Positions 14,881-38,180 of a stretch of 47,709 bases of DNA are shown piece by piece. How positions within the stretch are numbered: the first letter of the stretch is position 1; each line of letters opens with the position of its first letter. The stretch spans positions 1 to 47,709 of the forward strand of contig JAIUPL010000013.1 in assembly GCA_020160935.1 (NCBI GenBank). Direction: 5' to 3'. The notes beneath the pieces were generated by a model that worked only from the letters and a program-made list of their open reading frames with translations, had not been told where the DNA came from and did no database searches. Both the position numbers and the translations under genes were made by a program. This DNA is from Bacteroidota bacterium. GTDB lineage: Bacteria; Bacteroidota; Bacteroidia; Chitinophagales; Saprospiraceae.

Positions 14881-15018
14881 ATCCGTGTTGCAAATCCGTG
14901 CAATCTGCGTTCCCATCCGCGTAATCCGTGTTGCAAATCCGTGTAATCCGCGTTCCCATCCGCGTAATCCGTGTTGCAAATCCGTGTAATCCGCGTTATC
15001 ATCTGTGTGATCCGTGTT
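14881..15018. repeat. Tandem repeat of ~43 bp built from ATCCGTGT/ATCCGCGT units
   Basis: The segment repeats ATCCGTGTAATCCGCGTT-like blocks; a unit of about 43 bases occurs at least twice nearly unchanged and is itself made of 9-base sub-units. It begins about 50 bases upstream of the TMEM175 start and runs over the 3' end of the sugar porter, so that the porter's last residues (HGSHR) and TGA stop come from repeat sequence. Confidence 0.8.
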
Positions 15019-16345
15019 TCAGTTGCTTCTCCAGATCCTCCAGCGACACCCCCTTCGTTTCCGGCATCATTTTCCATACAAACAGCAACTGAAATACCAT
15101 CATCACCGCAAAAAAGGTGAAGATGGGGCCGCCGCCGAAACGCCCGGCAAACCAGGGGAAAATATTGGCAATAAGCGCCGCAAACACCCAGTGCGTAGCG
15201 CTACCCAGGGCATTGCCGTAGGAGCGAACAGCGTTGGGAAAAATTTCCGAAATGAACACCCAGATCACCGCGCCCTGCCCGATGGCATGTGCCGCAATGA
15301 AAACAAACAGCAGGATCGGCACCAGCAGGCTGTTGCTGGCCGCTCCGGAAAAAAACGCGTAGGCCACCAGCGACAGCGAAAAGATATATCCCCATGAGCC
15401 GATATACATCAAAAAACGCCGTCCCATGCGGTCGATAAGGGCCACGCCAAGCAGCGTAAACACCAGGTTCACCAGCCCGATACCGGTAGACGACAACAAG
15501 GCAGCGCTTTTGCCCATGCCCGTTTCGGCAAAAATGCGCGGCGCGTAGTAAATAACCGCATTGATGCCCGATACCTGGTTAAAAAAAGCAAACAGGAAAG
15601 CCAGCAGAATGGGTTTGCGGTATTTTCCGGAGAAAAACGAGGATGTCTGCGTCGAATCGCCAGTTGGTTGCATGCCTGCCCGAATGGCGTCGATCTGGCT
15701 TTGGGCGGTAGAAGGGTCGATACTTCGCAGGATGGACAATGCGCCTGCCTCATCGCCTTTTTTGACCAGCAGCCAGCGCGGACTCTCCGGAATGACCAGC
15801 ACGGCCAGCGAAAACAGCAGAGACGGCACCGTCACCCAGCCCAGCATCCAGCGCCAGGCATCGTCGCCACCGATGTCGCGCAACAGGTAGTTGGCGACGT
15901 AGGCAATCAGGATACCCAACACAATGTTGAACTGAAACAGGGCCACCAGGCGTCCACGCGACTGCGGCGGCGCAATTTCACTGATATACAACGGCGCTGT
16001 GACCGATGAGGAGCCGATAGCCAGTCCGCCCAGAAAACGGAAAATCATAAATACACCTACGCCAGGCGCCATGGCCGACCCCACAGAGGATACCAGAAAG
16101 AGGATACCAATAATAAACAGGGTGCGTTTGCGGCCCAGTACATCCGAGGGTATGCCACCCAGGATGGCGCCTACTACCGTACCCCAGAGTGCCATGGCTA
16201 CCGCTAGTCCGTGGGTGAAATTATCAAGGTTCCAAAGGCGCTGGATGGCTTGCTCGGCGCCGGAAATCACGGCCGTATCGAGTCCGAATAAAAAACCCGC
16301 CAGGGCAACCGAAATGGACCAGCGAAAAAGCAAAGAGGAATTCAT
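14999..16345 (-). CDS. MFS sugar porter (sugar:H+ symporter family)
   Basis: 448 residues from the ATG at 16345 (MNSSLLFRWSISVALAGFLFGLD); open frame extends further upstream but without coding character. Diagnostic sugar-porter motifs are all present: GRKRTLFIIG in the 2-3 loop, PESPRWLL after helix 6, QVSGINAVIYYAPRIF in helix 7, DRMGRRFLMY in the 8-9 loop and PETKGVSLEDLE after helix 12. It should import a hexose or pentose across the inner membrane; the exact sugar cannot be told. The last codons and the TGA lie inside a tandem repeat (14881-15018), so the C terminus has been altered by the repeat. Confidence 0.92.
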   Translation of the reverse strand: MNSSLLFRWSISVALAGFLFGLDTAVISGAEQAIQRLWNLDNFTHGLAVAMALWGTVVGAILGGIPSDVLGRKRTLFIIGILFLVSSVGSAMAPGVGVFMIFRFLGGLAIGSSSVTAPLYISEIAPPQSRGRLVALFQFNIVLGILIAYVANYLLRDIGGDDAWRWMLGWVTVPSLLFSLAVLVIPESPRWLLVKKGDEAGALSILRSIDPSTAQSQIDAIRAGMQPTGDSTQTSSFFSGKYRKPILLAFLFAFFNQVSGINAVIYYAPRIFAETGMGKSAALLSSTGIGLVNLVFTLLGVALIDRMGRRFLMYIGSWGYIFSLSLVAYAFFSGAASNSLLVPILLFVFIAAHAIGQGAVIWVFISEIFPNAVRSYGNALGSATHWVFAALIANIFPWFAGRFGGGPIFTFFAVMMVFQLLFVWKMMPETKGVSLEDLEKQLKHGSHR

Positions 16346-16533
16346 GTGCGAAAGGAAATTTGTGTCGGCTAAAGGTAGACGTAAATTTGATTTTGCATAC
16401 ATGAGTGGGTGTTGTAAACAATTTTGCAGGTTCTGTTGGAGCGGGAAGGCTATTTGTTGGGGCAGGATGGGAAAACGGCGGCGGCGGATTTTTCTGGCCT
16501 GGCACCATGATCGTACTGAAAATACGACTGTCC

Positions 16534-16635
16534 ACTCTACGCCTTGTGCCCTTTGTGAAACCTTTGTGAACCTTGTGGTAAAATTTTTAACCACAAAGAA
16601 CACCACGGTTTCACAAAGGACACAAAGCGTAGAGT
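16534..16635. repeat. Long inverted repeat of the ACCACAAAG/CACAAAG type
   Basis: The left arm begins ACTCTACGC (16534) and the right arm ends GCGTAGAGT (16635); in between, CACAAAG and TTTGTG blocks pair over about 45 bases around an AT loop. The same unit (AACCACAAAG...CACAAAGCGTAGAGTAC) occurs at 20943-21104 with the two copies facing the other way. It lies between the sugar porter and the small membrane protein. Confidence 0.8.
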
Positions 16636-16644
16636 ACTCCTGTT

Positions 16645-17139: not shown

Positions 17140-17144
17140 GGTAA

Positions 17145-17285
17145 GGGTTGATGAGGTTGATGAGGTTGATAAAGTTGATAAGTGTTGATGAGGGTTGATA
17201 TGCATCGGCTCTATAAGGAGCAATTTTTTCGTATTTCGAGTGGCTGAATATCAACCCTCATCAACCCTCATCAACCCTCATCAAC
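17145..17285. repeat. GTTGATGAG array arranged as an inverted repeat with a shared core
   Basis: Repeats of GTTGATGAGG and GTTGATAA on the left are answered by ATCAACCCTC repeats on the right. The core is bounded by GTTGATATGCATCGGCTC and GAGTGGCTGAATATCAAC. The same bounded core, inverted, occurs at 23630-23763. The right arm supplies the TGA stop of the GMC oxidoreductase, and the left arm ends just upstream of the small membrane protein's ATG. Confidence 0.85.
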
Positions 17286-18873
17286 ACTTTCCCCGCACCT
17301 GCTCCATCGCCCGCTCCGCAATCGCCGTGATCGACAGTGCAGGGTTCACACCGGGGTTGGCCGAGATCATCGAGCCGTCGCACACCAGCATATTTTCATA
17401 ACCAAAAACGCGGTTATTGGCATCGATGACGCCCGTTTCCGGAGAATCGCCCATGACAGCGCCGCCCAGGATATGCGCCGTGCCGGGAATGCCCATCAGC
17501 GGGGTAAGGCCGAATGCCATGGCTTTTCCATGCATGATTTTTTCAAATTTCCGCGCCAGTTCAATGGCCCGGGGTATGAACGCGGTCGGTTTCTCCGCGC
17601 CTACCACGGTAGTGCGCATACCGCCCGAGCGTTTGCGGGTGAAAGTGACGGTACTGTCGAGCGTTTGCATAAACAGCATGACGGCCGAACTGCGCGCCCA
17701 GTCTTTCACCCACAGGTATTTCCAGTAAGTGCCCGGGTGTATCAGCACATCGGCGATCATTTTTCCAAAACGAACGAGTGCATTTTTGCCTTCTACAAAG
17801 GGTAAAAAACTGAGTTTCCAGGCGCCCGAACCAGCACCGTAGCGGCATATTTCGAGGTGGCTGTGTTCATCAGTATGCAAAATAGCGCCGATGGCAATGC
17901 CTTTCGAGAGGTCGGACGAACCATCGAGTTGGGTGACGCAGATCAGGCTTTCGTTGTTGGTGCGTACGTCGCGGCCCACCATGTCGGACAGGCCAGGCAG
18001 CGACGATTCTTTCAGTTTCAGCAGCAGCGAAACGGTGCCCAGCACGCCGCCGGAAAACACCACGCCGCGGGTGCGCAGCACCTGTTTTTGTTTGAAAAAA
18101 CGCGTCGAGGAGCGAATTTCCACCTCGTAGCCCTCCGAGCCGTCGGGTTTGCCGATGGGGCGCACGTCGGTCACCTCCTGTTCGGCCATGATCTGTGCGC
18201 CATGCTGCTGCGCCAGGTGCAGGTAGTTTTTGTCGAGGGTGTTTTTGGCGCCATGCCGGCAACCAGTCATACAGGCGCCGCAGTAGTTGCAGCCGATGCG
18301 CTCGGGGCCTTGTCCGTCGAAGTACGGGTCAGCCACGGATTTGCCGGCATCGCCGAAATAAACAGCCACATTCGTAGCATTCAGGTGTCCGCCCTGCCCG
18401 ATTTCCTGTGCCAGCGTTTCCAGGTGGCGCTCGCCATCGAAAAATCGCGGATTGGGGGCCGCGCCCAGCATGCGCAGCGCCCGGCGGTAGTACGGTTCCA
18501 GTTCCTGCTGCCAGTCGGCCAGCGCCGCCCAACTGCCCGAGCGGAAAAACGCGGTTTTGGGCACTGGCAAAGTGTTGGCGTACACCAGCGAGCCGCCGCC
18601 TACGCCTGTGCCTGACACAATGCCTACGTCCTTGAAAATGGTGATTTTCATGATGCCAAACCAGCGCAACGCTGGCAACCACAGCCATTTGCCCAACTGC
18701 CAGTTGGTTCGGGCAAAATCTTCGGGCCGGTACCATTTGCCTTTCTCAATCACGAGCACCTTGTAGCCTTTTTCCGATAGCCGCAAGGCACTGACGGAGC
18801 CGCCGAAGCCGCTCCCGATAATGATGTAGTCGAAAGAGCGGTGAGAGGTGGGAGATGAGAGGTGAGATGGCAT
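17281..18873 (-). CDS. ChoD-like GMC family FAD-dependent oxidoreductase (cholesterol-oxidase type)
   Basis: 530 residues. The FAD-binding loop IIGSGFGGSVSALRL is at about 18-32, followed by VLVIEKGKWY. GIVSGTGVGGGSLVYANT is the second GMC signature. The segment GCNYCGACMTGCRHGAKNTL contains a CX2CX2CX3C cluster that is characteristic of the ChoD-like subgroup. The C terminus has GMC-type MGIPGTAHILGGAVMGD and VCDGSMISANPGVNPALSITAIAERAM. Such enzymes oxidise sterol-like or other alcohols; the substrate here is unknown. The first ~12 residues (MPSHLSSPTSHR) are encoded by CACCTCT-like repeat, and the stop codon lies in a GTTGATGAG array, so both ends have been reshaped by repeats. Confidence 0.88.
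   Translation of the reverse strand: MPSHLSSPTSHRSFDYIIIGSGFGGSVSALRLSEKGYKVLVIEKGKWYRPEDFARTNWQLGKWLWLPALRWFGIMKITIFKDVGIVSGTGVGGGSLVYANTLPVPKTAFFRSGSWAALADWQQELEPYYRRALRMLGAAPNPRFFDGERHLETLAQEIGQGGHLNATNVAVYFGDAGKSVADPYFDGQGPERIGCNYCGACMTGCRHGAKNTLDKNYLHLAQQHGAQIMAEQEVTDVRPIGKPDGSEGYEVEIRSSTRFFKQKQVLRTRGVVFSGGVLGTVSLLLKLKESSLPGLSDMVGRDVRTNNESLICVTQLDGSSDLSKGIAIGAILHTDEHSHLEICRYGAGSGAWKLSFLPFVEGKNALVRFGKMIADVLIHPGTYWKYLWVKDWARSSAVMLFMQTLDSTVTFTRKRSGGMRTTVVGAEKPTAFIPRAIELARKFEKIMHGKAMAFGLTPLMGIPGTAHILGGAVMGDSPETGVIDANNRVFGYENMLVCDGSMISANPGVNPALSITAIAERAMEQVRGKC
18838..18871. repeat. Single-arm CACYTCT-type heptamer array
   Basis: GTGAGAGGTGGGAGATGAGA is a short run of the complement of CACCTCT with variants. 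It overlaps the first codons of the GMC oxidoreductase. No matching inverted arm was found nearby, unlike most arrays in the window. The same unit occurs at 21768-21809 and 32413-32463. Confidence 0.6.
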
Positions 18874-18962
18874 GGATGTGGTATGGTTGAAAATTGCTGA
18901 AAGGTATTGAAAATCGGAATCAGGATGGCATACATTCGAAATTCCTGGCCAAAAATCTTAAG

Positions 18963-18981
18963 AACTTGTATAATACAAGTT
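18963..18981. promoter_or_regulatory. Perfect 19-bp palindrome in a divergent promoter region
   Basis: AACTTGTATAATACAAGTT reads the same on both strands (nine bases each side of a central A). It sits between the divergent GMC oxidoreductase (start 18873) and the NTF2-like lipoprotein (start 19090). The size and symmetry fit an operator for a dimeric repressor that could control either or both genes. No regulator gene is adjacent. Confidence 0.5.
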
Positions 18982-19089
18982 GGAAGAGTATTTTGGTGGC
19001 GCTGAATGGCTTGATTATCAAAAATTTAAGAGCCTGACTCCATTCTTTTTTTACATCACATTTCAATTATTCAACAAACACCTACACCA

Positions 19090-19590: not shown

Positions 19591-19708
19591 GTCGATTATT
19601 TGTATTTTCCTCCCTTTTGTTGAAAACTCCCCGCACTTCGTTGAAAAACGCTGCTTGCCCTTTCCCGAAGACATATTTTTGAAGCCATCTTCAAAAAAAG
19701 CACTTGCT

Positions 19709-20917: not shown

Positions 20918-20942
20918 CTTTGAGGGCGAAATGCCACTATTG

Positions 20943-21104
20943 TTTTTTTAATAAACCACAAAGAGCACCAGGGACACAAAGCGTAGAGTACGCTGTTTGG
21001 TGGCGTAACAAGCCTAATCCGTTAGGTGTCAGGCAAAGTTCAAGTGTAAAAAGGCGCACTCTACACTTTGTGTCCCTGGTGCTCTTCGTGGTTTATTAAA
21101 AAAA
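20943..21104. repeat. Long inverted repeat of AACCACAAAG units ending in GCGTAGAGTAC
   Basis: About 48 bases on the left (TTTTTTTAATAAACCACAAA, then GAGCACCAGGGACACAAAG, then GCGTAGAGTAC) pair with 21057-21104 with only a few mismatches. The loop is about 66 bases. It lies between patatin and the zinc-ribbon gene on the same strand. The outer ends carry T-run/A-run, so it can form a bidirectional terminator-like hairpin. Compare 16534-16635, where the same unit points outwards. Confidence 0.85.
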
Positions 21105-21172
21105 TAATGGTGCTTAGCAGAAACTTGACCACCCAGCCGCAGTGTTCTTCTTGGTAAAAAAACGATCAAATC

Positions 21173-21637: not shown

Positions 21638-21698
21638 GATAAGTACTTAAGGGTGGCGAATTGAATGTCTCGTTGAATTTATGGGAATATTTTTTTTC

Positions 21699-21744
21699 AC
21701 AGGGCGTTGCCCTGTGCTATCGAAAACGCCCTTTCAGGGCTTGC
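21699..21744. repeat. REP-like palindromic element (GGGCGTTGCCC / CGCCCTTTCAGGGC)
   Basis: AGGGCGTTGCCCT is followed by TGTGCTATCGAAAA and CGCCCTTTCAGGGCTTG. Two short GC hairpins can form. The arrangement resembles dispersed palindromes known from many Bacteroidota intergenic regions. It lies between the convergent zinc-ribbon and acyl-CoA dehydrogenase genes, next to a single-arm heptamer array. Confidence 0.55.
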
Positions 21745-21767
21745 ACGTTGGGAATGAGTGCTTGTTT

Positions 21768-21809
21768 TCTCACCTCTCACCTCTCACCTCTCACTTCTCA
21801 CCTCTATCA
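21768..21809. repeat. CACYTCT heptamer array abutting the acyl-CoA dehydrogenase stop
   Basis: Five to six copies of CACCTCT/CACTTCT lead directly up to the stop codon of the acyl-CoA dehydrogenase (TGA complement at 21807-21809). No inverted partner arm is visible here. Confidence 0.7.
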
Positions 21810-23612: not shown

Positions 23613-23629
23613 GAGTGGAGGATTTGATG

Positions 23630-23763
23630 GGGGTTGATAAGAGTTGATGAGGGTTGATGAGGTTGATAGGGTTGATATTCAGCCACTCTAAAACCGGAAC
23701 CATTGATCATACCCGAGCCGATGAATATCAACCCTCATCAACCCTCATCAACTCTTATCAACC
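23630..23763. repeat. GTTGATGAGG array palindrome between divergent genes
   Basis: GGTTGATGAGGTTGATAGG-type repeats on the left and ATCAACCCTC repeats on the right flank a core that, in reverse, is bounded by GTTGATATTCATCGGCTC and TTAGAGTGGCTGAATATC. This matches the core at 17145-17285 in inverted orientation, with a different middle. Located between acyl-CoA dehydrogenase (starts 23612) and GH30 (starts 23828), so both genes read away from it. Confidence 0.85.
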
Positions 23764-23827
23764 ACATAAATTTCTGACGTAAACATACGACATTTGGCCT
23801 GTCATGAAATCAACCAACTCATAGTAG

Positions 23828-25285
23828 ATGAAAAAGATACTTACCCTGAGCGCGGCCATGCTGGCGCTCTTCGCCTGTGGCGGCCCACGCAAATCCGCTG
23901 CTACGCTCGATCCGTTCAATGCCGGAAAAAAAGTGATGGTGTACACCACTGCCGAAAAAACCACTGATCGCCTGAGTTTCCGCGATTCGCTGTCGTTCAA
24001 AAAAATGGGGCAGCCGCTGGAAACCCAGATTTGTGTGTTTGTCGATCCTTCCAAAACCTTTCAAACCTATATGGGCATTGGCGCGGCGCTCACCGACGCG
24101 TCTGCCGAAACGTATGCCAAACTGCCGCTCAACAAGCAGCAGGAGTTCATGGAGGCCCATTTCGACAAAAAACGAGGCATCGGCTACACCATAGCACGCA
24201 CCAATATCAACAGTTGCGACTTCAGCAGCGATAATTACACGTACGTCAAGGACGGCGACAAAGACCTGAATTCCTTCAATATCGAGCACGACCGGAAGTA
24301 CAAAATTCCGTTTATCAAACAGGCCATGGCTGCTGCAGGTGGCAAACTGACGCTGTTTGCCAGTCCCTGGAGCCCGCCTGCCTGGATGAAAGACAACAAC
24401 GACATGTTGCATGGCGGCAAATTGAAACCCGCGTACTACAACAGTTGGGCACGCTATTACACCAAATTTATCCGTGCCTACGAGCAGGAAGGTATTCCGA
24501 TCTGGGGCATTTCCGTTCAAAACGAACCCATGGCCACCCAGCGCTGGGAAAGTTGCATCTACACCGCTGAAGAAGAACGCGATTTCCTGAAAAACCACCT
24601 CGGTCCGGTGATGAAAAAGGAAGGCCTGGGCGATAAAAAAATCATCGTGTGGGACCACAACCGCGACCTGATTTACCAGCGCGCACAAACCTACTTCAGC
24701 GACCCGGAAGCCGCTCAGTACATCTGGGGTATCGGTTTTCACTGGTATGAAGACTGGAGCGGGGGCACACCCATGTACGATAACATGCGCCGGGTACACG
24801 AATCCTTCCCGGATAAAAACATCTTCTTCACGGAAGGTTGCGCCGAAAGTTTCGACCCCAAACGCTACAATGCCTGGTCGCTGGGTGAAGAATACGCACG
24901 TTCCATGATCAACGATTTTAACAACGGCATGGTGGGTTTCACAGACTGGAATATCCTGCTGGACGAAAACGGCGGCCCCAACCACGCCAAAAACTTCTGC
25001 TTTGCTCCCGTTCACGGCGACCTGCGCACTGGCCAGTTGATCTACACGAACGCCTACTACTACATCGGTCATTTCTCCAAATTTATCGACCCCGGTGCAC
25101 GCCGCATCAGCGCCGCAGCCAGCCGCAGCCAACTGCTCACCACGGCCTTTCGCAACCCGGATGGCAAAACGGTGGTCGTCGTCATGAATCAGAGTGACGC
25201 CGCTACACCTTTTTATCTTTGGGTAAATGGCGATGCCGCGTCGTGGACGATCGAAGGACATGCGATAGCAACGCTTGTTTTTTAG
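23828..25285 (+). CDS. Glycoside hydrolase family 30 lipoprotein (glucosylceramidase/beta-1,6-glucanase type)
   Basis: 485 residues. Lipoprotein signal with Cys17 (LALFAC). GH30 is a (beta/alpha)8 retaining hydrolase. The acid/base Glu233 is in ISVQNEPM and the nucleophile Glu336 is in IFFTEGC. Other family features are GIGAALTDASAETY (82-95), LFASPWSPPAWMKDN and GIGFHWYEDW. A C-terminal beta side domain (KTVVVVMNQSD) closes the protein. It probably hydrolyses beta-linked glucan or a related polysaccharide at the cell surface; no SusCD pair is adjacent. Its last codons (CTTGTTTTTTAG) are part of the following inverted repeat. Confidence 0.94.
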   Translation: MKKILTLSAAMLALFACGGPRKSAATLDPFNAGKKVMVYTTAEKTTDRLSFRDSLSFKKMGQPLETQICVFVDPSKTFQTYMGIGAALTDASAETYAKLPLNKQQEFMEAHFDKKRGIGYTIARTNINSCDFSSDNYTYVKDGDKDLNSFNIEHDRKYKIPFIKQAMAAAGGKLTLFASPWSPPAWMKDNNDMLHGGKLKPAYYNSWARYYTKFIRAYEQEGIPIWGISVQNEPMATQRWESCIYTAEEERDFLKNHLGPVMKKEGLGDKKIIVWDHNRDLIYQRAQTYFSDPEAAQYIWGIGFHWYEDWSGGTPMYDNMRRVHESFPDKNIFFTEGCAESFDPKRYNAWSLGEEYARSMINDFNNGMVGFTDWNILLDENGGPNHAKNFCFAPVHGDLRTGQLIYTNAYYYIGHFSKFIDPGARRISAAASRSQLLTTAFRNPDGKTVVVVMNQSDAATPFYLWVNGDAASWTIEGHAIATLVF

Positions 25286-25553
25286 AGCGTGAGAGCGTGA
25301 GAGATGTGAGAGCGTGAGAGATGTGAGAGGGTGAGAGCGTGAGAGATGTGAGAGCGTGAGAGATGTGAGAGGGTGAGAGCGTGAGAGTTTTTAGAGTACA
25401 CCGCTCCGTTCTTGGAATTTTTAGTGCGGAGCGGTGTACTCTAAAAACTCTCACCCTCTCACATCTCTCACGCTCTCACTCTCTCACATCTCTCACATCT
25501 CTCACACTCTCACGCTCTCACATCTCTCACTTCTCTCACGCTCTAAAACAAGC
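25273..25553. repeat. GTGAGAG array palindrome incorporating the end of the GH30 gene
   Basis: Left arm: GH30 3' end (GCTTGTTTTTTAGAGCG) then GTGAGAGATGTGAGAGCG-type repeats of 8-9 bases. Core: TTTTTAGAGTACACCGCTCC (25388-25407) pairs with 25428-25447. Right arm: complement of the array ending CTCTAAAACAAGC. So GCTTGTTTT(TT)AGAGCG is present in both arms, although only the left copy is coding. The rest of the 25286-25643 gap holds a promoter-like sequence. Confidence 0.88.
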
Positions 25554-25643: not shown

Positions 25644-26735
25644 ATGTTACGACTTGTATTTGCTCTTGTCTTGTTGTTCCACGGCCTCATTCATTTGATG
25701 GGGTTTGCAAAAGCATATAAATACGCAGAAATCAGCCAGTTGACGGGCACCTACTCGCGTGCTGCAGGAGCGCTTTGGTTGTTTAGCGCCCTGTTATTGC
25801 TGGTATCCGCCGGATTGTTCCTATGGGAAAAGGAAATATGGTGGATGCCTGCAATTGCGGGTCTCCTGTTGTCACAAATGCTGATTTTCAGTCAATGGCA
25901 AGATGCGCGTTTCGGCACCATCGCCAACATCATCTTGTTGTTAGGGGTGCTACCGGCATACGGGCAATGGCAGTGGAACCGCATGGTAAACGCTGAAACG
26001 AAAGCATTTTTACCTGTTGGATTGCCTGAATCCAGCGTGCTCACCCGCGAAATGATAGCAGGCATGCCCCCTGTGGTGCAAAAATGGATGGAACGCTCGG
26101 GCGTCATCGGTCGAAAAATGACCCGCCAGGTACATCTCGTACAGACCGGTCGCATGCGCACCAAACCCGACGGCAAATGGATGCCGGTCACGGCGACCCA
26201 GTATTTCACCATACATCAACCCGGATTTTTGTGGACCGCTGATGTGGAAGCAGCACCGTCTGTCGTGTTGAAAGGCCGCGACCTGTACCAGAACGGTCAG
26301 GGGCACATGCTTATCAAGGCATTGGCACTGTTTCCAGTGACGGATGCCAAAGGCGCTACCACCGACCAGGGTTCCCTGTTGCGCTACCTGGCCGAAATAT
26401 GCTGGTTTCCGGATGCCGCTCTCCATGCCTTCATCCAGTGGGAACCCATTGATGACCATTCCGCCAAAGCCACCCTGCGCTATGGCAAGGCAGAAGGCAG
26501 CGGCATTTTTACGTTCGATGAAAATGGTGACATCCGCAGTTTTGAAGCCATGCGGTACTTTAGTCAGAAAAAAGGCGACACCCTCGAAAAATGGTACATC
26601 GATATGGATCCTGCCAGTTTCGAAGTATTCGAAGGCGTCCGAATCCCTACTCGTTCCACTGTTACCTGGAAACTGGCTGAAGGGGACTTTTCGTGGTTTG
26701 AAGTGGAAATCGGGGAAGTGAGGTATGAGTTATGA
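25644..26735 (+). CDS. Membrane protein with DUF6544-like domain
   Basis: 363 residues. Four hydrophobic helices fill residues 1-120 (LFHGLIHLMGFAKAYKYAEI, LWLFSALLLLVSAGLFLW, IAGLLLSQMLIFS, NIILLLGVLPAYG). The soluble C-terminal part has MPPVVQKWMERSGVIG, VHLVQTGRMRTKPDGKWMPVTATQYFTI, PGFLWTADVEAAP and GRDLYQNGQGHM, a pattern I associate with DUF6544/DUF6920-type proteins; function unknown. A Bacteroidota-type promoter may lie just upstream. The last four codons (YEL and TGA) come from a TGAGTTA array, and GGGGAAGTGAG in its 3' end is repeated inverted at the end of the convergent response-regulator gene. Confidence 0.7.
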   Translation: MLRLVFALVLLFHGLIHLMGFAKAYKYAEISQLTGTYSRAAGALWLFSALLLLVSAGLFLWEKEIWWMPAIAGLLLSQMLIFSQWQDARFGTIANIILLLGVLPAYGQWQWNRMVNAETKAFLPVGLPESSVLTREMIAGMPPVVQKWMERSGVIGRKMTRQVHLVQTGRMRTKPDGKWMPVTATQYFTIHQPGFLWTADVEAAPSVVLKGRDLYQNGQGHMLIKALALFPVTDAKGATTDQGSLLRYLAEICWFPDAALHAFIQWEPIDDHSAKATLRYGKAEGSGIFTFDENGDIRSFEAMRYFSQKKGDTLEKWYIDMDPASFEVFEGVRIPTRSTVTWKLAEGDFSWFEVEIGEVRYEL

Positions 26736-26889
26736 GTTATGAGTTATGAGTTATGAGTTATGAGTTATGAGTTATGAGTTATGAGTTATGAGTTATGATG
26801 CTGTACTCATGGCTTTTTTATTAGAGTAGCCAAAAGCAGCGTGAGAAAAACTCATAACTCATAACTCATAACTCATAACTCACTTCCCC
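26712..26889. repeat. TGAGTTA heptamer array palindrome between convergent genes
   Basis: GGGGAAGTGAG (26712-26722) in the DUF6544-like gene is complementary to 26879-26889 in the response-regulator gene. Inside lie about ten left-arm copies of TGAGTTA and about four right-arm copies of TAACTCA. The core has GCTGTACTCATGGC and TTAGAGTAGCCAAAAGCAG, which pair imperfectly. The palindrome therefore reaches into both coding sequences and provides both stop codons. Confidence 0.9.
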
Positions 26890-27638
26890 ATCCACTCTTT
26901 AAACGCATCTACTTTTTCCCGGCTGATCAGGATGTCTTCGTTGTTCAGGGGGGCGTTCAGGATCACTTTCAGGCGGCTGTTGGAGTAGGCAGTAGCGTTT
27001 TTGATGGCATCGAGGGGAGTGATGTATTGCCGATTGATGCGAAAAAAAAGTTCAGGGTTCAGCAAATCTTCCAGTTGTTCAAGGGTATAGTCGATCACAT
27101 ATTTTCGGCCATTGCGATGGCGGAGCCAGACCACCTTGTTTTCTCCGAAAAAATACTCCACATCCCGGACGTCGATGCTGCTGAGGGTGTCGCCAATTTT
27201 TACCATAAAACGGTTTTTAAATCGATTGGGCCGGATGGTTTCCATCATGTTCCGAATCAGGTCGGCGTCCACAAGCGGCGCCCCGCGCAGGGTTCGTAGT
27301 TTGGAAAATGCCTGAGCGAGGTCTTCTTGCGATACAGGTTTCAGCAGGTAATCCACACTGTTGACTTTGAATGCTTTCAGTGCATAGGCATCGTATGCGG
27401 TTGTAAAGATGACCGGACAAGTCACTTTTACCTGTTCAAATATTTCAAAACTCAAGCCGTCAGCCAACTGTACATCGAAAAACGCCAGGTCGGGCATGGG
27501 ATTGGCTTGTAGCCAGCCTATGGCCGCTTTTACCGAATCCAGCGTGGCCACTACCTCGATGGATGGATCCACCCGGGGAAGTTTCGACAGGAGGCCCCAG
27601 GCGGCCAGGTCTTCGTCTTCGATGATGATAACGCGCAT
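26880..27638 (-). CDS. LytTR-family response regulator
   Basis: 252 residues. The receiver domain has acidic pocket EDED (7-10), phosphoacceptor Asp55 in AFFDVQLADG, the Thr/Ser in FTTAYDAYALKAF and the Lys in DYLLKPVS. The C-terminal LytTR DNA-binding domain includes FMVKIGDTLSSIDVRDVEYFFGENKVVWLRHRNGRKYVIDYTLEQLEDLL and FFRINRQYITPLDAIKN. Partner of the LytS-type kinase upstream. Its ATG lies directly next to a TGATGAA array and its TGA stop in a TGAGTTA array, so it is flanked by two different arrays. Confidence 0.95.
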   Translation of the reverse strand: MRVIIIEDEDLAAWGLLSKLPRVDPSIEVVATLDSVKAAIGWLQANPMPDLAFFDVQLADGLSFEIFEQVKVTCPVIFTTAYDAYALKAFKVNSVDYLLKPVSQEDLAQAFSKLRTLRGAPLVDADLIRNMMETIRPNRFKNRFMVKIGDTLSSIDVRDVEYFFGENKVVWLRHRNGRKYVIDYTLEQLEDLLNPELFFRINRQYITPLDAIKNATAYSNSRLKVILNAPLNNEDILISREKVDAFKEWMGK

Positions 27639-27640: not shown

Positions 27641-28843
<1,203 letters not shown>

Positions 28844-29506: not shown

Positions 29507-29722
<216 letters not shown>

Positions 29723-29724
29723 CC

Positions 29725-30663
29725 TTGTCCACTCAACGCCATACCGATCTTATCCGTGCCGAGGCCCACAGGCTGGGCTTCGAATTTGTGGGGTTTGCGC
29801 GGGCTGAACGGCTGGACGAGGAGGCGCGGCGACTGGAGCAGTGGCTGCAGCAGGGAGCCCACGGGCGTATGTCGTACATGGAAAACCATTTCGACATGCG
29901 GGTCGACCCTACCCTGCTGGTGCCGGGTGCAAAAACAGTTATTTGCCTGACATTCAATTATTTCAATCCGGAAAAGCAAGAGGATGTGGAAGCGCCCAAA
30001 ATTGCTTCCTATGCGTATGGTGAAGATTATCACCATGTGGTAAAAGACAAATTGAAGGCACTGCTGGCTTATATGCAGGCGGAAATCGGGCAGATAGATG
30101 GCCGTTGTTTTGTCGACTCAGCGCCCGTCATGGAGCGCGAATGGGCTCAACGCGCCGGGCTCGGCTGGAATGGCCGCAACACCCTCACCATTCACCCCAA
30201 ACGGGGTTCTTTTTTCTTTCTGGCAGAAATTATCTGCGACCTGCCGCTGGTGTACGACGACCCCATGCGCGACCACTGCGGCACCTGCCGGCGCTGTATT
30301 GATGCCTGCCCAACGGATGCCATCGCACCCGAAGGTTATTTTCTGGATGCATCCAAGTGCATTTCCTACCTCACCATCGAATTGCGCGATCAGATTCCCC
30401 ATGAATTTCGCGGTCAAATGGACAACTGGATGTTCGGCTGCGACATTTGCCAGGATGTGTGTCCCTGGAATCGTTTCGCTCAACGGCACAACGAACCTGC
30501 CTTCGAGCCGCACCCCGATTTGTTGCAAATGACCCGCCGCGACTGGCAGGAACTCACCGCCGAGGTTTTTGGTAAAGTTTTTAAAAAATCGGCTGTAAAA
30601 CGGGTAAAATGGGAAGGGCTGAAAAGGAATATGGATTTTTTGGGAGTGGTGAGTGGTGAGTAG
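29725..30663 (+). CDS. queG: Epoxyqueuosine reductase QueG
   Basis: Cobalamin- and Fe-S-dependent enzyme of the last step of queuosine tRNA modification. Two [4Fe-4S] motifs are present: CGTCRRCIDACP and CDICQDVCPWN. DSAPVMEREWAQRAGLGWNGRNTL carries the catalytic Asp and the cobalamin-contact region. About 312 residues from the TTG at 29725; no ATG is available, and a GTG at 29680 would need translation through the heptamer array. It is shorter than E. coli QueG because the C-terminal HEAT-like part is absent, as in many Bacteroidota. The terminal VVSGE and TAG are encoded by a GTGAGTR array. Confidence 0.93.
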   Translation: MSTQRHTDLIRAEAHRLGFEFVGFARAERLDEEARRLEQWLQQGAHGRMSYMENHFDMRVDPTLLVPGAKTVICLTFNYFNPEKQEDVEAPKIASYAYGEDYHHVVKDKLKALLAYMQAEIGQIDGRCFVDSAPVMEREWAQRAGLGWNGRNTLTIHPKRGSFFFLAEIICDLPLVYDDPMRDHCGTCRRCIDACPTDAIAPEGYFLDASKCISYLTIELRDQIPHEFRGQMDNWMFGCDICQDVCPWNRFAQRHNEPAFEPHPDLLQMTRRDWQELTAEVFGKVFKKSAVKRVKWEGLKRNMDFLGVVSGE

Positions 30664-30752
30664 TGAGTAGTGAGTGGTGAGTAGTGAGTGATAAGCCAAG
30701 GGAAACCCTACTCACTACTCACCACTCACTACTCACCACTCACCACTCATAA
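30646..30752. repeat. GTGAGTR heptamer array palindrome between convergent genes
   Basis: GTGAGTG/GTGAGTA units on the left, CACTCAC/TACTCAC units on the right, with a short core (ATAAGCCAAGGGAAACC). The left arm supplies the queG TAG, the right arm borders a TGAGTTA-like unit that supplies the TGA of the RibD-like gene. No TAGAGT motif was found here. Confidence 0.9.
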
Positions 30753-31307
30753 CTCATACCTCACAACTGCTATTCCGCATTCAAACGCTTTCGCTTCCAC
30801 CAGTTTCAGGTTCAGTTTTTGTTCCAGTCCCTGAAAAATAGGCATGCCTTGGCCGATGGCGGTGGGATTGACGAACAGAAAAAACTGATCGATCAGGCCG
30901 TGCTGAATGAGGCTGGTCACAAATTTACCGCCACCATAGACTATTATATCACCACCGGGTTGTTGTTTCAGGGCTGTCACTTCTTCTACCAGATCGCCAT
31001 GGGCCAGTGTGGTATGTGCCCAGGAATGCTCGTGAAGAATATGGGTAAAAACCACTTTCGGCGTTTCATGGAATTTCCGGGAAATGGCGTCGGAAGTATC
31101 GGGATTGGTAGCGAGTCCGGCCCAGTGATCGATAAAACCCTGTGCCAGCACGCGGCCCAGCAGGATGGTGTCGATGGGTTCGGTGAGCGCGCCGACGTAT
31201 GATTTGAGGGCTTCATCCCAGTTCCAGGTCATCCAGTCCATTTCGCTGTTGGGGCCGGCGATAAAACCGTCGATTGAGATTTGTACTTGCAGTTTAAGTT
31301 TTCGCAT
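30747..31307 (-). CDS. RibD C-terminal/DHFR-like reductase family protein
   Basis: 186 residues. The fold is that of the dihydrofolate-reductase-like C-terminal domain of RibD: MRKLKLQVQISIDGFIAGP at the start, TILLGRVLAQGF, TPKVVFTH and GGDIIVYGGGKFVTSLIQHGLIDQFFLFVNPTAIGQGMPIF. Small stand-alone members are common and act on unknown substrates, so riboflavin synthesis should not be assumed. It is the last gene of a DoxX-VOC-RibD-like operon with short spacers. The C-terminal YEL* comes from array sequence. Confidence 0.85.
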   Translation of the reverse strand: MRKLKLQVQISIDGFIAGPNSEMDWMTWNWDEALKSYVGALTEPIDTILLGRVLAQGFIDHWAGLATNPDTSDAISRKFHETPKVVFTHILHEHSWAHTTLAHGDLVEEVTALKQQPGGDIIVYGGGKFVTSLIQHGLIDQFFLFVNPTAIGQGMPIFQGLEQKLNLKLVEAKAFECGIAVVRYEL

Positions 31308-32412: not shown

Positions 32413-32463
32413 GTTTCACCTCTCACTTCTCTCACTTCTCACTTCTCACCTCTCACCTCTATA
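32413..32463. repeat. Single-arm CACYTCT heptamer array upstream of the aldolase gene
   Basis: CACCTCTCACTTCTCTCACT and further copies lead to within a few bases of the aldolase ATG at 32467. No inverted arm was found. Same unit as 18838-18871 and 21768-21809. Confidence 0.65.
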
Positions 32464-32466: not shown

Positions 32467-33111
32467 ATGCGCGCCCACGTCTACCAAACCTTTCGCACCT
32501 CCCGCATCATCCCTTTGTTTTATCACCCCGATCCGGAAACAGCCTGGCAGGTGGCAGCCGCCTGTTACCGCGGCGGGGCGCAGGTACTGGAATTTACCCA
32601 CCGGGGGGTCTTTGCACATGAGGTATTTGCTGAATTAAAAAAACGTGCCCGCCGCAATCTGCCCGGCCTGCTCATCGGCGCTGGCTCCATACAGGATGCT
32701 GGCACTGCATCGCTGTACATCAATATGGGCGCCGATTTCATCATCACGCCGCTGCTGCGGGAAGACGTTATTCTGACCTGCAACCGGCGCAAAGTGGCGG
32801 TGTTGCCGGGTGTGTCTACTTCATCGGAAATAGGCCGGGCAGAAGAATTGGGTGCCGAAATAGTAAAAATTGCGCCGGGAGAAGTGCTGGGCCCCGCTTT
32901 TCTAAAGGCCCACCTCGGCCCTTGCCCCTGGACGGAAGCCATGATTTCCGGCGGCGTATCGACCGATGCGGAAAACCTGAAGAGTTGGTTTGACGCCGGG
33001 GCTGTTTGTGTGGGTTTGGGATCGAAGTTGATTTTAAGGGAGGTGATGGATAAGCAAGACTGGTCGGGGTTGGAAGCGAGAGTTAGGGAAGTTATGAGTT
33101 ATGAGTTATGA
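32467..33111 (+). CDS. eda: KDPG/KHG aldolase family (Entner-Doudoroff-type aldolase)
   Basis: 214 residues from the ATG at 32467. Cleaves 2-keto-3-deoxy-6-phosphogluconate and/or 4-hydroxy-2-oxoglutarate to pyruvate and an aldehyde through a Schiff base. Class I active-site residues are Glu42 in VLEFTHRG and Lys134 in IVKIAPGE; GADFIITPLL, PGVSTSSEIGRAEELGAE and PCPWTEAMISGGVS match the Bacteroidota branch. No other Entner-Doudoroff gene is adjacent. The final residues EVMSYEL and the TGA are encoded by the array palindrome, so the C terminus differs from a typical family member. Confidence 0.9.
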   Translation: MRAHVYQTFRTSRIIPLFYHPDPETAWQVAAACYRGGAQVLEFTHRGVFAHEVFAELKKRARRNLPGLLIGAGSIQDAGTASLYINMGADFIITPLLREDVILTCNRRKVAVLPGVSTSSEIGRAEELGAEIVKIAPGEVLGPAFLKAHLGPCPWTEAMISGGVSTDAENLKSWFDAGAVCVGLGSKLILREVMDKQDWSGLEARVREVMSYEL

Positions 33112-33203
33112 GTTATGAGTTTTACGCACTTTTCTTTTGGCTTCTCCAATTGTGTGGCAGAAAGCAACGTGCGTAAAACTCATAACTCATAACTCCCTAA
33201 CTC
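33080..33203. repeat. TGAGTTA heptamer array palindrome reaching into the aldolase gene
   Basis: GAGTTAGGGA (33080-33089), inside the aldolase coding sequence, pairs with TCCCTAACTC (33194-33203). Inside are TGAGTTA units and their complements. The core is GAGTTTTACGCAC ... GTGCGTAAAACTC with CTTTTGGCTTCTCCAAT between, which resembles the reversed core of 26712-26889. Converges with the M36 protease, whose TGA stop follows. Confidence 0.9.
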
Positions 33204-33208
33204 ATCAC

Positions 33209-36200
33209 TCACCGAATCACTACCTTCCTCGCCCCTACACCCGCTGCATTTTCCAGGCGCACCATATACACGCCGGCAGGCACTTGCTGCACGTCGAGGG
33301 TGAGCAACTGGCCTTCTGACAAGCCGTTGACAGAGCGGGTGAGCACGACCCGACCGTCGGCGGCCACAAGGGTGGCACGCACGTCGCCGCTCAGGGCCTG
33401 ACTCGTGCTCAGGTGCAGCAGGTCGTCGGCCGGGTTGGGCTGGGCAACGAGGCCGAGTGCATTGGCGGCAATTACGTCCTGAGTGCCCACAATGGCTGGC
33501 TGCACGATCACGCCGCGTTCTTTGGCTACAGCGCAGGCGGAGTTGCTGCCATCGGCCGTCACACAAGCCTGGCTGTTGTAATTCAGCATATCAAGCACTT
33601 CCACTTCATCCACTAACCAGGCGTCGCCCGGGTTGGCGGTGTTGTCGTCGGTAGCAAAACGGAAACGGATGGTGACTTCCTCGCCAGCGTAGTCGCTGAT
33701 GTCAAAATACGATTGAAGCCAGCCGTTGGAATTGCCGGAGAAAGCGCTGAGGTAAGGGATGCCGAAGGTCGAATACTGCACAGACGCCGGGTAGGAATTG
33801 CGGAACACCTTCTCAGGAGTGAACCGACGCCAGTTCACATCATCTATTTTCTTGATTTCCAGGATACCTGCATCAGCCGATTTTTCGGTGTTGTAGCGGT
33901 GCCAGAAGCGCAGCACGGGCTGGTTGCCGCTGACTACAAAACTCTGGAACGGCGTTTCCAGGGTAAAATCGCTCACTTCTGCCAGGCTGTTTGCTTTCCA
34001 TGCGCTCGGCCCAACAAGGCTCTCCGCCGATTGCAGGCTGAAATACTGATTGCCGTCGAGGGCCAGCGAAATCCAGTTTTCATCCGTATCCATCGGGTCG
34101 CGGAACTGGCGCTGGGAGCCTACACCTTCGGCGCTTTTGGCCGTGTAAGTAAGTTCGCGTGACTGCCCGGCAGGCACCGAACCCAGGTTCCAGGTAATAA
34201 CACCGTTGCTGAACGTGCCGCCATTGGACGCCGAGAGGAAAAAGAGTCCGTCGGGCAGTTCGTCCGTCACGATTGTATTTACCGTGGCTTCTTCGCGGTG
34301 GTTAATGACCGTAATTTTGAAAGAAACCTCCTCGCCTGGTTCGATCAGAGGCGTAGTGGTTTCTTTTTTGATTTTCAGTTCCTTGATGCAATACGGAATC
34401 GGGTCGAAATTTTCCACCCCGTCGGTATCTTCCATGGCAGAGCCCTGGCTGGCGCCCACGCCCAGGCCGCGGCGCGCAAAAACGTCCATGATGAGGCAAG
34501 TATCCACGCCTTCGTAGTTCAGCAGGTCGGCCAGTACAATCGCATCGCGGCCGTCTACAAAGCCCGGATCGCAGGGTTGAATTTTCATGCCATCGATGAC
34601 CAGTTGAAGGGCACGCGCGTTGCCACTGTTGGCATTGTTGATATCGGCATCGTAGCCATATTTTTCCACCATGGCCCAGTAAAGATCCCACAGCATTGAA
34701 GTCCAGATTTCTCCTTTCTGGTGCGGGAACTGCTGGGTAGGGTCGCCTGTAACGGCAGGCGTGAGCGCTACCCAGGAGTATGTTTGAGGGTTGATCGACA
34801 TATCGGTGGAGTACGCGTAGCGGCGAATACCACGGCCGTCATTGCCCTGGCGCTGCACATAGGTACCGATGCCACGCTTCTGACCGGCCACGTCGCCGGG
34901 GCGGATGGTGGTAGCGAGGGTAAAGAAATCGCTCCAGCCTTCACCCATTTGTTCTTCATTGGTAAGGCAATCTGCCGTGGAAGGGCCGCCCGTCAGTCGG
35001 TTACTGATGCCGTGGGTGTATTCGTGGGCAATGATGCCGTTGTCGAAATCGCCGTCGAGTCGTTCCGGGCCACTCACCGGCGGCACTACAATCGATGCGT
35101 TCAGGGAAATGCCGGTGAAAGGTTTGAGCAGGTCGCAGTCCGATTTTTTCAGCATAATGATCGGGAAGTTATTGACGCCCGAGCCGCCCATCGGAATAAC
35201 GTCTTCTTCAAAATTGCAGACGATACAAGCGACAGCGCCCGCCTGCTGTGCTTTTTGGGCTTTTTGTACAAAGGTGCAATCGCCACGGTCTACCATGACA
35301 ATTTTACCAGCCAGGCTCACAGTGTAGTCGCCGCAGCCCTGAGCAGATGTTTCAGCGCCGCTTCCGTCGTCGGCCAGCACCACATCACCTGTAAATGGAA
35401 CGCTGCCAATGGTAGCCCCCCAGCCAGAAGAAGTGCCGACGGAATACGTGCCGGAAATGGCTGCCGGTGCATTGACCGTGAGCAGTTTTCCGCCCTGACG
35501 GTTCCATTTGTACATCTGCATCCTGCCGGAAAAGCCGTCGGGTGTAGGCACGAAATTGGCATTATCTACCCCCGAGCCATCCAGTGCTTCGGCCATTACG
35601 GGGTCGCCTTCGTTGCCGCCCCGGCCAAAGTTGTTTGCCTGATAATTGCCTGCATCCTCATCAAAACCAAAGCGATACGAGATGTCGTGCATCTTGTTGG
35701 TCATGTAAAACAGGTTGGTAATGGCGGCACTTCGGTTGCTTTCGGGTTCGAGATTCGGATCGAAAGGGAAATTAAAAACGCCGTTGCTGCCCTGGGCCGA
35801 TTCAATTGGAGAACCATTGTTGTCGTTGGCACTGTCTTCGTACGCCCAGGCGTTGTTGCCACGCGTATACGTGTATTCGGGTCCGGGCACACCGTCCACA
35901 TCCAGCCAGCCGAAAGGCGAGGCTGCGGGATCGGCGGGATTCAGCAGCAGTTCACGGCTGCCATGTGAAGGACTTTCCGCAGGCAAAGGGAAAACGTTGT
36001 AGGTTTCATCGTTTTCATTGAGGGTTGAAGATGCAGTTGCAGGAGCATCCACCTGATCTTCGCAGTCGGCCGCTTCATCGCTACCGCTGTGCGCATGGCC
36101 CGCCTGGCAGTACACCGTACGGTTGTGTTTGCTCAGGATCAGGCCCGTTTGTGCATCCACACGCATGCTCCACACATCGGAAGTATTGGCCTGGGCAATG

Positions 36201-36754: not shown

Positions 36755-36830
36755 AATATTCAGAACAGTAACAAGTTTGATTTGATACGGAGAAAAATAC
36801 AGTTAAACGGGGGCTCCCAAAGGTATGGTA

Positions 36831-37058
36831 AAGTCGACAGTTGGCAGTCGACAGTTATTGGTCTTTCCAGGCAAATGCTTGCAATTGACAGTAAATAGTC
36901 GGCAGTCGACAGTTGTCAGTCAACAGTCGACAGTCGGCAGTCGACAGTCAACAGTCCGTAGAGTGTACCTGGTAAATATCGGCTTCTTGGTTAAAGTTGC
37001 CGAAAGTAGGTAGGTACACTACACGGACTGTTGACTGACGACTGTTGACTGTTGACTT
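36831..37058. repeat. GTCRRCA heptamer array palindrome upstream of prs
   Basis: GTCGACA/GTCGGCA/GTCAACA units on the left, complementary units (TGTTGAC, TGACGAC) on the right. The junction CGTAGAGTGTACC (36957-36969) pairs with GGTACACTACACGG (37013-37026). The core is AT-rich. It lies between the divergent M36 protease and prs; the right arm overlaps the promoter region of prs. Confidence 0.88.
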
Positions 37059-37071
37059 TTTCTTACCTTTG
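37045..37071 (+). promoter_or_regulatory. Probable prs promoter with TACCTTTG -7 box
   Basis: TACCTTTG (37064-37071) matches the Bacteroidota -7 consensus TAnnTTTG exactly. A TTG at 37045-37047, inside the repeat arm, is 16 bases upstream. Transcription would start near 37078, about 32 bases before the prs ATG. The array thus contributes the upstream promoter element, which is inference. Confidence 0.6.
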
Positions 37072-37109
37072 CACATCCTTTCATTTTAAGACCGTCTCGG
37101 CTTAACTAT

Positions 37110-38036
37110 ATGCCCGAAGTTAAACTATTTTCCTGCTCCGCTTCCAAAGCGCTGGCAACCGACATTGCCTATCATTTCGACGCGCCGCTGGGTGATACCA
37201 CGCTGGCCCGTTTCAGCGATGGCGAAATGCAAACCATTCTGAATGAAAGTGTACGCGGCGCCTACACTTTTTTTATTCAAAGCACTTGCCAGCCCCACGA
37301 CAACCTGATGGAATTGCTGCTCTGGATCGACACGGCCAAACGTGCTTCTGCGGGTTACATCACGGCCGTGATTCCGTATTTCGGTTATGCCCGACAAGAC
37401 CGGAAAGACAAGCCGCGGGTACCGATCAGCGCCAAATTAGTAGCCAACCTGCTCACGGCCGCCGGCGCCGATCGCATCATGACCATGGACTTGCATGCCG
37501 ACCAGGTGCAGGGCTTTTTCGACATTCCGGTCGACCACCTGCGCTCTGAAGCCATTTATTCGCAGTACCTGGAAAGCCAGGATTTGTCGAATGTCATTTT
37601 TGCCAGCCCGGACGTAGGCGGTGTAAAACGTGCCCGCCAATACTCCGTGTTTTTCAAACGGGAACTCGTCATTTGTGATAAATACCGCACCAAAGCCAAC
37701 GAAGTGTCGGCCATGACGGTCATCGGCAACGTCGACGGCGCCGACGTCATTCTGGTAGATGATATGGTGGATACGGCCGGCACGCTCTGCAAGGCTGCCG
37801 ATGCGCTCATGGATAAAGGCGCCAAATCGGTACGCGCTATTTGCACACACCCCGTGCTGTCGGGAAAAGCCTACGACAACATCGAAAAATCACAACTGTC
37901 GCAAATGATCGTCTGCGATACGATCCCGCTCACCCGCGAATGCTCCAAAATTCAGGTACTGTCTACCGCTAAGTTGTTCGCGCGCGCTATCCGGAATACG
38001 GTGGAGCATAAGTCGATTGCGGCGCTGTTCCATTGA
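37110..38036 (+). CDS. prs: Ribose-phosphate pyrophosphokinase (PRPP synthase)
   Basis: 308 residues. Makes PRPP from ribose-5-phosphate and ATP for purine, pyrimidine, histidine, tryptophan and NAD synthesis. DLHADQVQGFFDIPVDHL includes the catalytic His; ICDKYRTKANEV is the flexible catalytic loop, with Tyr where many enzymes have Arg but Lys and the second Arg kept; VILVDDMVDTAGT is the PRPP loop. FSDGEMQTILNESVRG is the N-terminal signature. Typical length ~310. A strong -7 box lies upstream and the stop codon joins directly to a GTGAGAGR array. Confidence 0.96.
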   Translation: MPEVKLFSCSASKALATDIAYHFDAPLGDTTLARFSDGEMQTILNESVRGAYTFFIQSTCQPHDNLMELLLWIDTAKRASAGYITAVIPYFGYARQDRKDKPRVPISAKLVANLLTAAGADRIMTMDLHADQVQGFFDIPVDHLRSEAIYSQYLESQDLSNVIFASPDVGGVKRARQYSVFFKRELVICDKYRTKANEVSAMTVIGNVDGADVILVDDMVDTAGTLCKAADALMDKGAKSVRAICTHPVLSGKAYDNIEKSQLSQMIVCDTIPLTRECSKIQVLSTAKLFARAIRNTVEHKSIAALFH

Positions 38037-38180
38037 GAGAGGGTGAGAGGGTGAGAGAGTGAGAGGGTGAGAGAGTGAGAGAGTGAGAGGGTGAGAGAGT
38101 GAGAGAGTGAGAGAGTGAGCGTTCGTAAAGTATGTGTACTCTACGAACTCTCACCCCTCTCACTCTCTCACTCTCTATCA
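38034..38180. repeat. GTGAGAGR octamer array palindrome between convergent genes
   Basis: It starts at the prs stop codon with GTGAGAGG/GTGAGAGA 8-base units (38037-38118). The core GTTCGTAAAGT...ACTCTACGAAC (38121-38147) forms a short hairpin with one mismatch. The right arm of CACTCTCT units ends at the TGA complement of the surface-protein gene (38178-38180). Confidence 0.9.

Follow-up and report, generated by a model that had tools for sequence, protein, structure and literature searches.

The window analysed here covers positions 1 to 47,709 (47,709 nucleotides (nt)) of contig JAIUPL010000013.1 from assembly GCA_020160935.1 of a Bacteroidota bacterium of the family Saprospiraceae. Between positions 14,881 and 38,180 its gene boundaries hold short tandem arrays, many of which are folded as two complementary arms around a core, and these array-armed palindromes form a class that is found genome-wide. 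The genome holding the window (G000) comprises 5.84 Mb in 51 contigs, and 847,709 bp of it, including the window, were sampled. Arrays were accepted at a Tandem Repeats Finder (TRF) score of at least 40 and an array partner was defined as a reverse complement no more than 250 bp away with a local score of at least 36, while the unit families F1 to F12 were grouped by eye. Gene calls were made with a simple custom script, on which intergenic or genic status and sense strand rest; gene orientation in the window was judged from open reading frames, gene calls and Pfam matches. The repeat features of the window, given without strand, are the following.

14880..15018: single-arm array AATCCGTGT/AATCCGCGT; TRF, no listed partner
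16534..16635: palindrome ACTCTACGCYTTGTG..AACCACAAAG, arms about 46-50 nt, weak array; TRF and inverted-repeat search
17146..17285: F3 palindrome, GTTGATGAGG arms, tandem boundary; TRF, delimited arms
18836..18867: single-arm array GAGAGGT; TRF, no listed partner
20935..21112: inverted repeat AACCACAAAGAGCACCAGGGACACAAAGCGTAGAGT, 64-nt arms, 89%, no TRF array; inverted-repeat search
21768..21805: single-arm array TCTCACC; TRF, no listed partner
23622..23771: F3 palindrome, arms 48 nt, 92%; delimited arms
25273..25553: F5 palindrome, GTGAGAG arms of 139 columns, core GTACACCGCTCCG; delimited arms
26702..26896: F1 palindrome, TGAGTTA arms, apical GGC-N15-GCC, convergent boundary; TRF, delimited arms
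27641..27810: F8 palindrome, GATGAAT arms, separating response regulator and histidine kinase genes, tandem boundary; TRF
29507..29722: F8 palindrome, TGATGAA arms (14.1 + 4.6 copies), divergent boundary; TRF
30644..30768: F9 palindrome, GAGTAGT/GAGTGGT arms, containing the QueG stop codon, convergent boundary; TRF
32416..32460: single-arm array TCACCTC; TRF, no listed partner
33072..33228: F1 palindrome, AGTTATG arms, convergent boundary; TRF, delimited arms
36832..37060: F12 palindrome, AGTCGAC arms, paired part 36922-37060, core CGTAGAGTGTACC, apical GGC-N15-GCC, divergent boundary; TRF
38037..38176: F5 palindrome, GAGAGAGT arms, core TTCGTAGAGTA, convergent boundary; TRF, delimited arms

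An earlier note on this DNA had named twelve array palindromes, and all of them were found near the positions it gave. Ten are clear arrays, while the array at 16534 is weak (TRF period 11, 2.4 copies, score 43) and the element at 20943, a strong inverted repeat, contains no TRF array. Four single-arm arrays were counted where the note had three. Its claim that the arms are complementary within a locus describes a real and specific pairing (arms of 32-139 nt, 82-100% complementary in the eleven delimited palindromes), and it could likewise be confirmed that the elements occur between co-directional genes and at boundaries of all three kinds, convergent, tandem and divergent.

The tandem-repeat and inverted-repeat scan, extended beyond the window to the G000 sample and to relatives, showed that the phenomenon is genome-wide. 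The G000 sample contains 252 arrays (207 intergenic, 45 genic), with 7, 14 and 21 as the commonest periods (67, 35 and 23 arrays); at a TRF score of at least 50, a real 300-kb contig contains 63 arrays, against 1 in a single Markov-random sequence of 300 kb. A partner was found for 154 of the 252 arrays, compared with 10 of 252 when the flanks of randomly chosen other arrays were used, and the paired arrays include 152 of the 207 intergenic ones but only 2 of the 45 genic ones. The paired elements delimited in this sample (n = 85, 170 arms) have a median arm of 58 nt, a median identity of 0.92 and a median total length of 152 nt. Elements are denser in the window than in the genome, and 76 of the 314 intergenic regions of at least 100 bp in the 0.85-Mb sample are occupied. 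Enlarged samples of G000 (0.95 Mb) and of its sister species G028 (0.74 Mb) gave 140 and 112 palindromes, 252 in total. The earlier note had allowed that such arrays might prove to lie at random inside genes; of 199 palindromes from G000 and G028, a set from which N-containing palindromes were removed, none lies more than half inside called genes, and many reach a stop codon. The 'palindromes' of a further genome, G047, were runs of N and were discarded.

The units, first thought to be specific to each locus, form dispersed families. About ten were recognised by eye among the 85 elements, namely F1 (TGAGTTA), F2 (AGTCCTR), F3 (GTTGATGAGG), F4 (TTTCCCGCAGA), F5 (GTGAGAG), F6 (GTTATTGG), F7 (GTGTTTTG), F8 (TGATGAA), F9 (GTGAGTAG) and rarer ones, while single-linkage clustering of the arms gave eight groups of at least two, the largest mixing several of the by-eye families, and seven singletons. 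Three consecutive TGAGTTA units occur 91 times forward and 59 times in reverse in G000, the control pattern read backwards never, and other units recur at many loci; a stricter F2 pattern gave 3 matches in G000 and was set aside. For 238 of the 252 palindromes of G000 and G028 a relative exists at another locus of the same genome at E<=1e-2 (235 at 1e-5). An apical GGC-N13..17-GCC motif near the centre, present in several families, was found in 23 of the 85 elements as against 70 of 1700 shuffles. F1 arms in G000 gave 71 inward-facing matches and no outward-facing one (the matches overlap, so the loci are fewer), and this uniform polarity is as expected if whole palindromes disperse.

The elements are placed at gene ends. 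Intergenic regions could be assigned to 82 of the 85, and an element is present in 26 of the 57 convergent regions of at least 100 bp, in 38 of the 174 tandem ones and in 12 of the 83 divergent ones. The median distance to a flanking stop codon is 4 bp (n = 99) and to a flanking start codon 56 bp (n = 65), with the stop overlapped in 39 of 99 cases and the start in 2 of 65. Where at least 150 bp of free space was available, 30 of 42 elements in tandem regions were nearer to the stop, and for those in convergent regions (n = 26) the shorter of the two distances had a median of 18 bp, compared with about 134 for even placement. In L257 a reductase-like and a ferredoxin-like gene (named by eye) each have an F1 element after the stop, the second element overlapping it.

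Arms tend to agree within their own locus, often down to the order of unit variants. The earlier note had also asked whether the arms of a locus might match those of other loci just as well as each other; for 124 of the 170 arms, the best match among all arms was the mate. At 41 F2 loci (15 in G000, 26 in G028) the variants of the 7-nt units, read outward from the core, agree between the arms at 104 of 135 positions (41/47 in G000, 63/88 in G028), while permuted mates agree at a mean of 0.449 with a maximum of 0.608 in 5000 permutations. Where three or more units could be compared (32 F2 loci), 16 loci show identical unit order on both arms; the 41 loci carry 27 distinct codes, some of them common to several. 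In 14 F1 core rows (L055, which belongs to F2, was left out) 9 base pairs have changed on both sides, compared with 4.1 (sd 1.2) after shuffling, and none of 500 shuffles reached 9; several of these paired changes are A-U to U-A swaps without a wobble intermediate. G000 and G028 have an orthologous element at 36831 whose two arms have changed in concert, with GTCRACA units and GTAGAGTGTACC in G000 and mostly GTCTTCA units and GTAGCGTGTACC in G028, on both arms. A boundary in the G028 sample could be mapped for 15 of 142 G000 palindromes, 13 of which meet a palindrome there (two of the 13, C17 6728 and 7018, hit the same one); 11 of the 13 have arms that resemble each other more closely than those of the other species.

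No sign of selection on an RNA was found in the mismatches. On the sense strand of tandem-oriented elements G-U and A-C mismatches number 117 and 139, and they number 83 and 105 in the 71 elements no more than 60 nt from the upstream stop, 79 and 85 in convergent and 35 and 33 in divergent elements. In contrast, 29 U-tract hairpins no more than 140 nt downstream of G000 genes, a positive control found with G-U and A-C scored alike, gave 21 G-U and 2 A-C. U-tracts are not enriched after the elements (12/170, control 189/2000). Of the properties of intrinsic terminators, the elements thus show the position just after the stop, while the U-tract and the tolerance of G-U are lacking, and simple terminator function is insufficient, as the earlier note had held. 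The absence of a G-U excess, unlike in the U-tract hairpins, indicates that the symmetry looks DNA-made rather than kept by selection on a sense-strand RNA. DNA-level upkeep is well supported; that symmetry is renewed rests on the arm-agreement evidence and not from the mismatch counts. An Rfam search at the gathering score gave a single tRNA and nothing else.

Between species, positions are kept while families turn over. At 26 orthologous G000/G028 boundaries, drawn from stretches chosen for G000 elements and not for those of G028, a palindrome is present in both species at 11, in G000 only at 3, in G028 only at 1 and in neither at 11 (Fisher p 0.0005); at one of the three G000-only boundaries (23612) the G028 palindrome falls just under the cut-off (score 48). 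F3 in G000 faces AATCAGGATT in G028 at 17139 (the window element at 17146) and at 13879, and F5 faces F2 at 11525. At 27638 the F8 element corresponds to a nested palindrome with GTGAGTAG outside in G028, and at 6726 and 25285 the outermost arms belong to the same family while the inside differs; for the element at 25273 the G028 outer arms are GAGGTGAGAG and the inner palindrome is different. The AATCAGGATT palindromes number 11 in the 0.74 Mb of G028 and 1 in the 0.95 Mb of G000, and 2 of the 11 are flanked on both sides by F6 arms. Array palindromes occupy the boundary at 36754 in each of the four species compared, and their units differ from one species to the next. The G028 boundary matching 21768 holds a short TCTCACC array; at that matching 16534 the palindrome is absent (best score 14), and at that matching 20935 there is nothing comparable (best palindrome score 23). 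Among the mapped window boundaries, 5 hold a palindrome in both G000 and the more distant relative G016, 2 in G000 only, 1 in G016 only and 2 in neither, and G016 lacks the palindrome at 23622; for G006, a further comparison genome, the counts are 1, 3, 1 and 0, and its QueG boundary (30644) is an empty site.

Several side observations concern these comparisons. Synteny with G028 is broken at the 29507-29722 array (L074, L106, L107), the two neighbours lying on separate contigs in G028 and each adjoining a short TGATGAA repeat, as if recombination had taken place between arrays. Beside QueG, a compensatory stem change and an exchange of bulge alleles between the arms were seen by eye in a close species pair (L076/L081 of G060 and G021, 92.7% over 2478 nt). 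The G028 orthologue of 38037 (L105:5230-5740) has a higher-order repetition of array plus GTAGAGTGTAC core in both arms of one palindrome. Several G028 contigs (L103, L105, L106, L107) terminate at or near compared boundaries; assemblies of the relatives may break at repeats, and element counts would then be lower bounds.

The distribution of the repeats is patchy. The F1 array (three TGAGTTA units) was found in 10 of 59 relatives searched, 9 of them among the 36 members of its own genus and the tenth in a different family. A scan for the inward two-armed TGAGTTA pattern matched at least 81 stretches of named genomes. Most of the matches listed are from Bacteroidota, with single records titled Cyanomargarita, Chloroflexi, Armatimonadetes, Calditrichaeota, Anaerolineae and Patescibacteria; judged by eye, the cores among them are mostly unrelated between species, and the cores of a few Saprospiraceae-titled or unnamed Bacteroidota have a TTGGC-N15-GCC tip. 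The two-armed pattern was rare in an even draw from the phylum (2 of 395, G000 included), and the F1 array with the tip pattern, searched in G047 and G023, gave one match, in G023 and with another core. In G053 the backwards TGAGTTA control gave 4+7 matches for three units, thus another heptamer array is present there. G022 (L157-L158), G021 (L144-L146) and G009 (L148-L151) each contain one palindrome whose outer parts are like GAGGCTGTCTC/GGGGTTGTCTC/GAGGTTGTCTC with repeats inside; by their sequence, these look like insertion sequence (IS)-type ends around arrays.

Arrays of this kind are not without precedent. The P6b stem of the trnL intron of Nostoc and Calothrix is a heptamer stem of Class I (TDNGATT) or Class II (NNTGAGT), and the accessible part of its description resembles the present elements in two complementary heptamer arms, copy changes of 7 nt and class replacement at a fixed place (PMC4476775); by inspection, the F1 unit written as TATGAGT fits Class II (PMC4476775). 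The P6b case concerns one RNA stem, located within a self-splicing intron, in contrast to the many intergenic loci and about ten families seen here, and a tip common to several repeat classes, as seen here, is not mentioned for P6b in that part of the account (PMC4476775). The cyanobacterial short tandemly repeated repetitive (STRR) sequences, whose function is described as unknown (PMC2670836), share with our elements the units of usually 7 bp, the location between genes, the formation of hairpins and, in one case, a position near a gene 3' end, as far as the consulted text goes (PMC2670836). Unlike in that text, there are here two arms around a core, mirrored variants, replacement between species and a Bacteroidota host (PMC2670836). 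The earlier note had not recognised such repeats; heptamer stems with class replacement and intergenic STRR hairpins are in fact known from these sources, whose accessible parts make them direct precedents. The scale, the modular families with a common tip, the mirrored order of variants and the G-U test were not seen in those parts. Set against the features of STRRs, the arrays have tandem units of 6-10 nt with prominent heptamers, are mostly intergenic (207 of 252) and have complementary arms (152 of 207 intergenic arrays), but the host is not a cyanobacterium. G000 encodes proteins with Por_Secre_tail, which we take to be a Bacteroidota-type domain.

The direct TAACTGA heptamer repeats reported by MacGregor in 2015, for which a role in rearrangement was suggested (PMC4679880), are similar in lying mostly between genes, in being spread patchily over phyla, with five Bacteroidetes among the carriers, and in differing between close relatives, according to the portion of the report available (PMC4679880). 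They differ in the main genome studied, for which the same portion counts 169 direct sets against one indirect repeat, most of them immediately upstream of start codons (PMC4679880). Quasi-palindrome correction by template switching is presented, in the part of the source at hand, as a mutational process of yeast, whereas here it is proposed to act on whole repeat families (PMC3820800). In the open-access literature searched, no account of such repeats in Bacteroidetes or Saprospira was found, nor one of REP-associated tyrosine transposases (RAYT) in Bacteroidetes.

On balance, and with some reserve, we favour the view that these are dispersed, STRR-like array-armed palindromes shaped by slippage, by hairpin-templated symmetry and by replacement of families at gene ends. 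Each copy would be able to form a long DNA hairpin, built from an array with its own unit, an inner stem and, for several families, a conserved apical hairpin GGC-N15-GCC. Whole palindromes would spread to new loci, most often coming to lie next to a stop codon, which the array itself may supply, and arm length would then drift by slippage. Hairpin-templated (quasi-palindrome) DNA synthesis would transfer variants from one arm to its mate, giving concerted arm change; such templated copying is the likely cause of the symmetry. A family may finally be replaced by another at a given boundary, sometimes by a palindrome within the arms of the old family, and we infer insertion into existing hairpins as the route.

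Several points weigh against this explanation. No transposase or other enzyme could be linked to the elements (Y1_Tnp was the sole transposase profile searched), and empty sites are too diverged for any target-site duplication to be read. All palindromes were located via their symmetry, which inflates within-locus agreement, and the F1 core rows were chosen by tip pattern and at least 11 of 18 matching stem positions, which inflates theirs. Since codes recur across F2 loci, many master copies could mimic mirrored variants, and equal G-U and A-C counts would also be expected if perfect palindromes simply decayed neutrally. Only at 36831 is there a clean case of an orthologous element changing in concert, families mostly differing elsewhere; two-sided nesting is limited to 2 of 11 copies, and position is strongly kept with G028 only. 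Mirrored copying into unique flanks is barely above chance (at least 14: 23/242, 9.5%, control 4.4%); this near-control level indicates that templated extension is not general, and the flank mirrors at 25273 and 26712 are suggestive but single cases.

Among the other explanations, RNA structures at 3' ends, acting as bidirectional terminators or as guards of mRNA 3' ends, with pairing selected, sequence free and families turning over, are possible but not probable. They would account for elements that abut stop codons and prefer convergent over divergent regions, and for palindromes that often stay at an orthologous boundary despite a change of family; the missing U-tracts and the mismatch ratio (117 to 139, against 21 to 2 in the control hairpins) speak against them, as do the elements between divergent genes and between the response-regulator and histidine-kinase genes. 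A little less probable still, and put forward as a tentative idea, is that selfish DNA hairpins spread by entering the loops of existing hairpins. A new core would be captured at the tip, the old arms would become flanks and erode, and fold-back synthesis would maintain symmetry; if true, this would explain kept positions with changing families, nesting, common GGC-N15-GCC tips and symmetry without RNA selection.

Origin from an unrecognised IS, as non-autonomous elements like miniature inverted-repeat transposable elements that are palindromic by descent and have the arrays as long terminal inverted repeats, is quite unlikely: species-specific bursts such as that of AATCAGGATT in G028, presence or absence at orthologous sites and the uniform F1 polarity would fit, but no target duplication is readable at the diverged empty sites, apical modules are common to families while ends are not, and variant order is mirrored locus by locus. 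Repetitive extragenic palindromes (REP) and REP doublets forming hairpins (REPIN), accompanied by RAYT, are dispersed intergenic palindromes without tandem arrays; the present elements share the palindromic, intergenic and dispersed character but differ in the arrays. Mobilisation of this type by a RAYT (Y1 transposase) is very improbable: two Y1_Tnp matches are present in G000, but in this genome the palindromes beside both (L071, L072) are other hairpins (CACAGGGCGTTGCCCTGTG.., GTTGGCGAGGACGCC..) without tandem arrays. A REP-like hairpin (CACAGGGCGTTGCCCTGTG..) resembling that at L071 was also seen by eye in the window; it lies around 21695-21745, next to an array but outside it, and belongs to a separate repeat class. 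Equally hard to credit is an independent origin of every array, with local slippage producing and inverting it where it now stands; arms are indeed more alike within than between loci, but units, cores and tips recur at many loci and F1 polarity is 71 to 0, and the dispersal of common cores contradicts independent origin. Loss of the hairpin nuclease SbcCD was also considered as a cause. The SbcD profile TIGR00619 has no match in G000, while 38 of 42 genomes searched have one at E<=0.001, 5 of them above the curated cut-off; G028 has such a match and is about equally palindrome-rich, so that loss of SbcCD is not required.

Short tandem arrays between bacterial genes have been catalogued since the cyanobacterial STRRs, and we know of no agreed mechanism for them. 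The boundaries described here constitute a natural experiment, in which one gene boundary carries different array hairpins in sister species and the arms of each tend to agree. Hairpin-templated concerted evolution thereby becomes directly testable, and the question arises whether the hairpin itself is wanted at gene ends. They also advise caution, since complementarity or covariation of intergenic arms need not imply a selected RNA structure, and a count of G-U against A-C mismatches separates the two within one genome.

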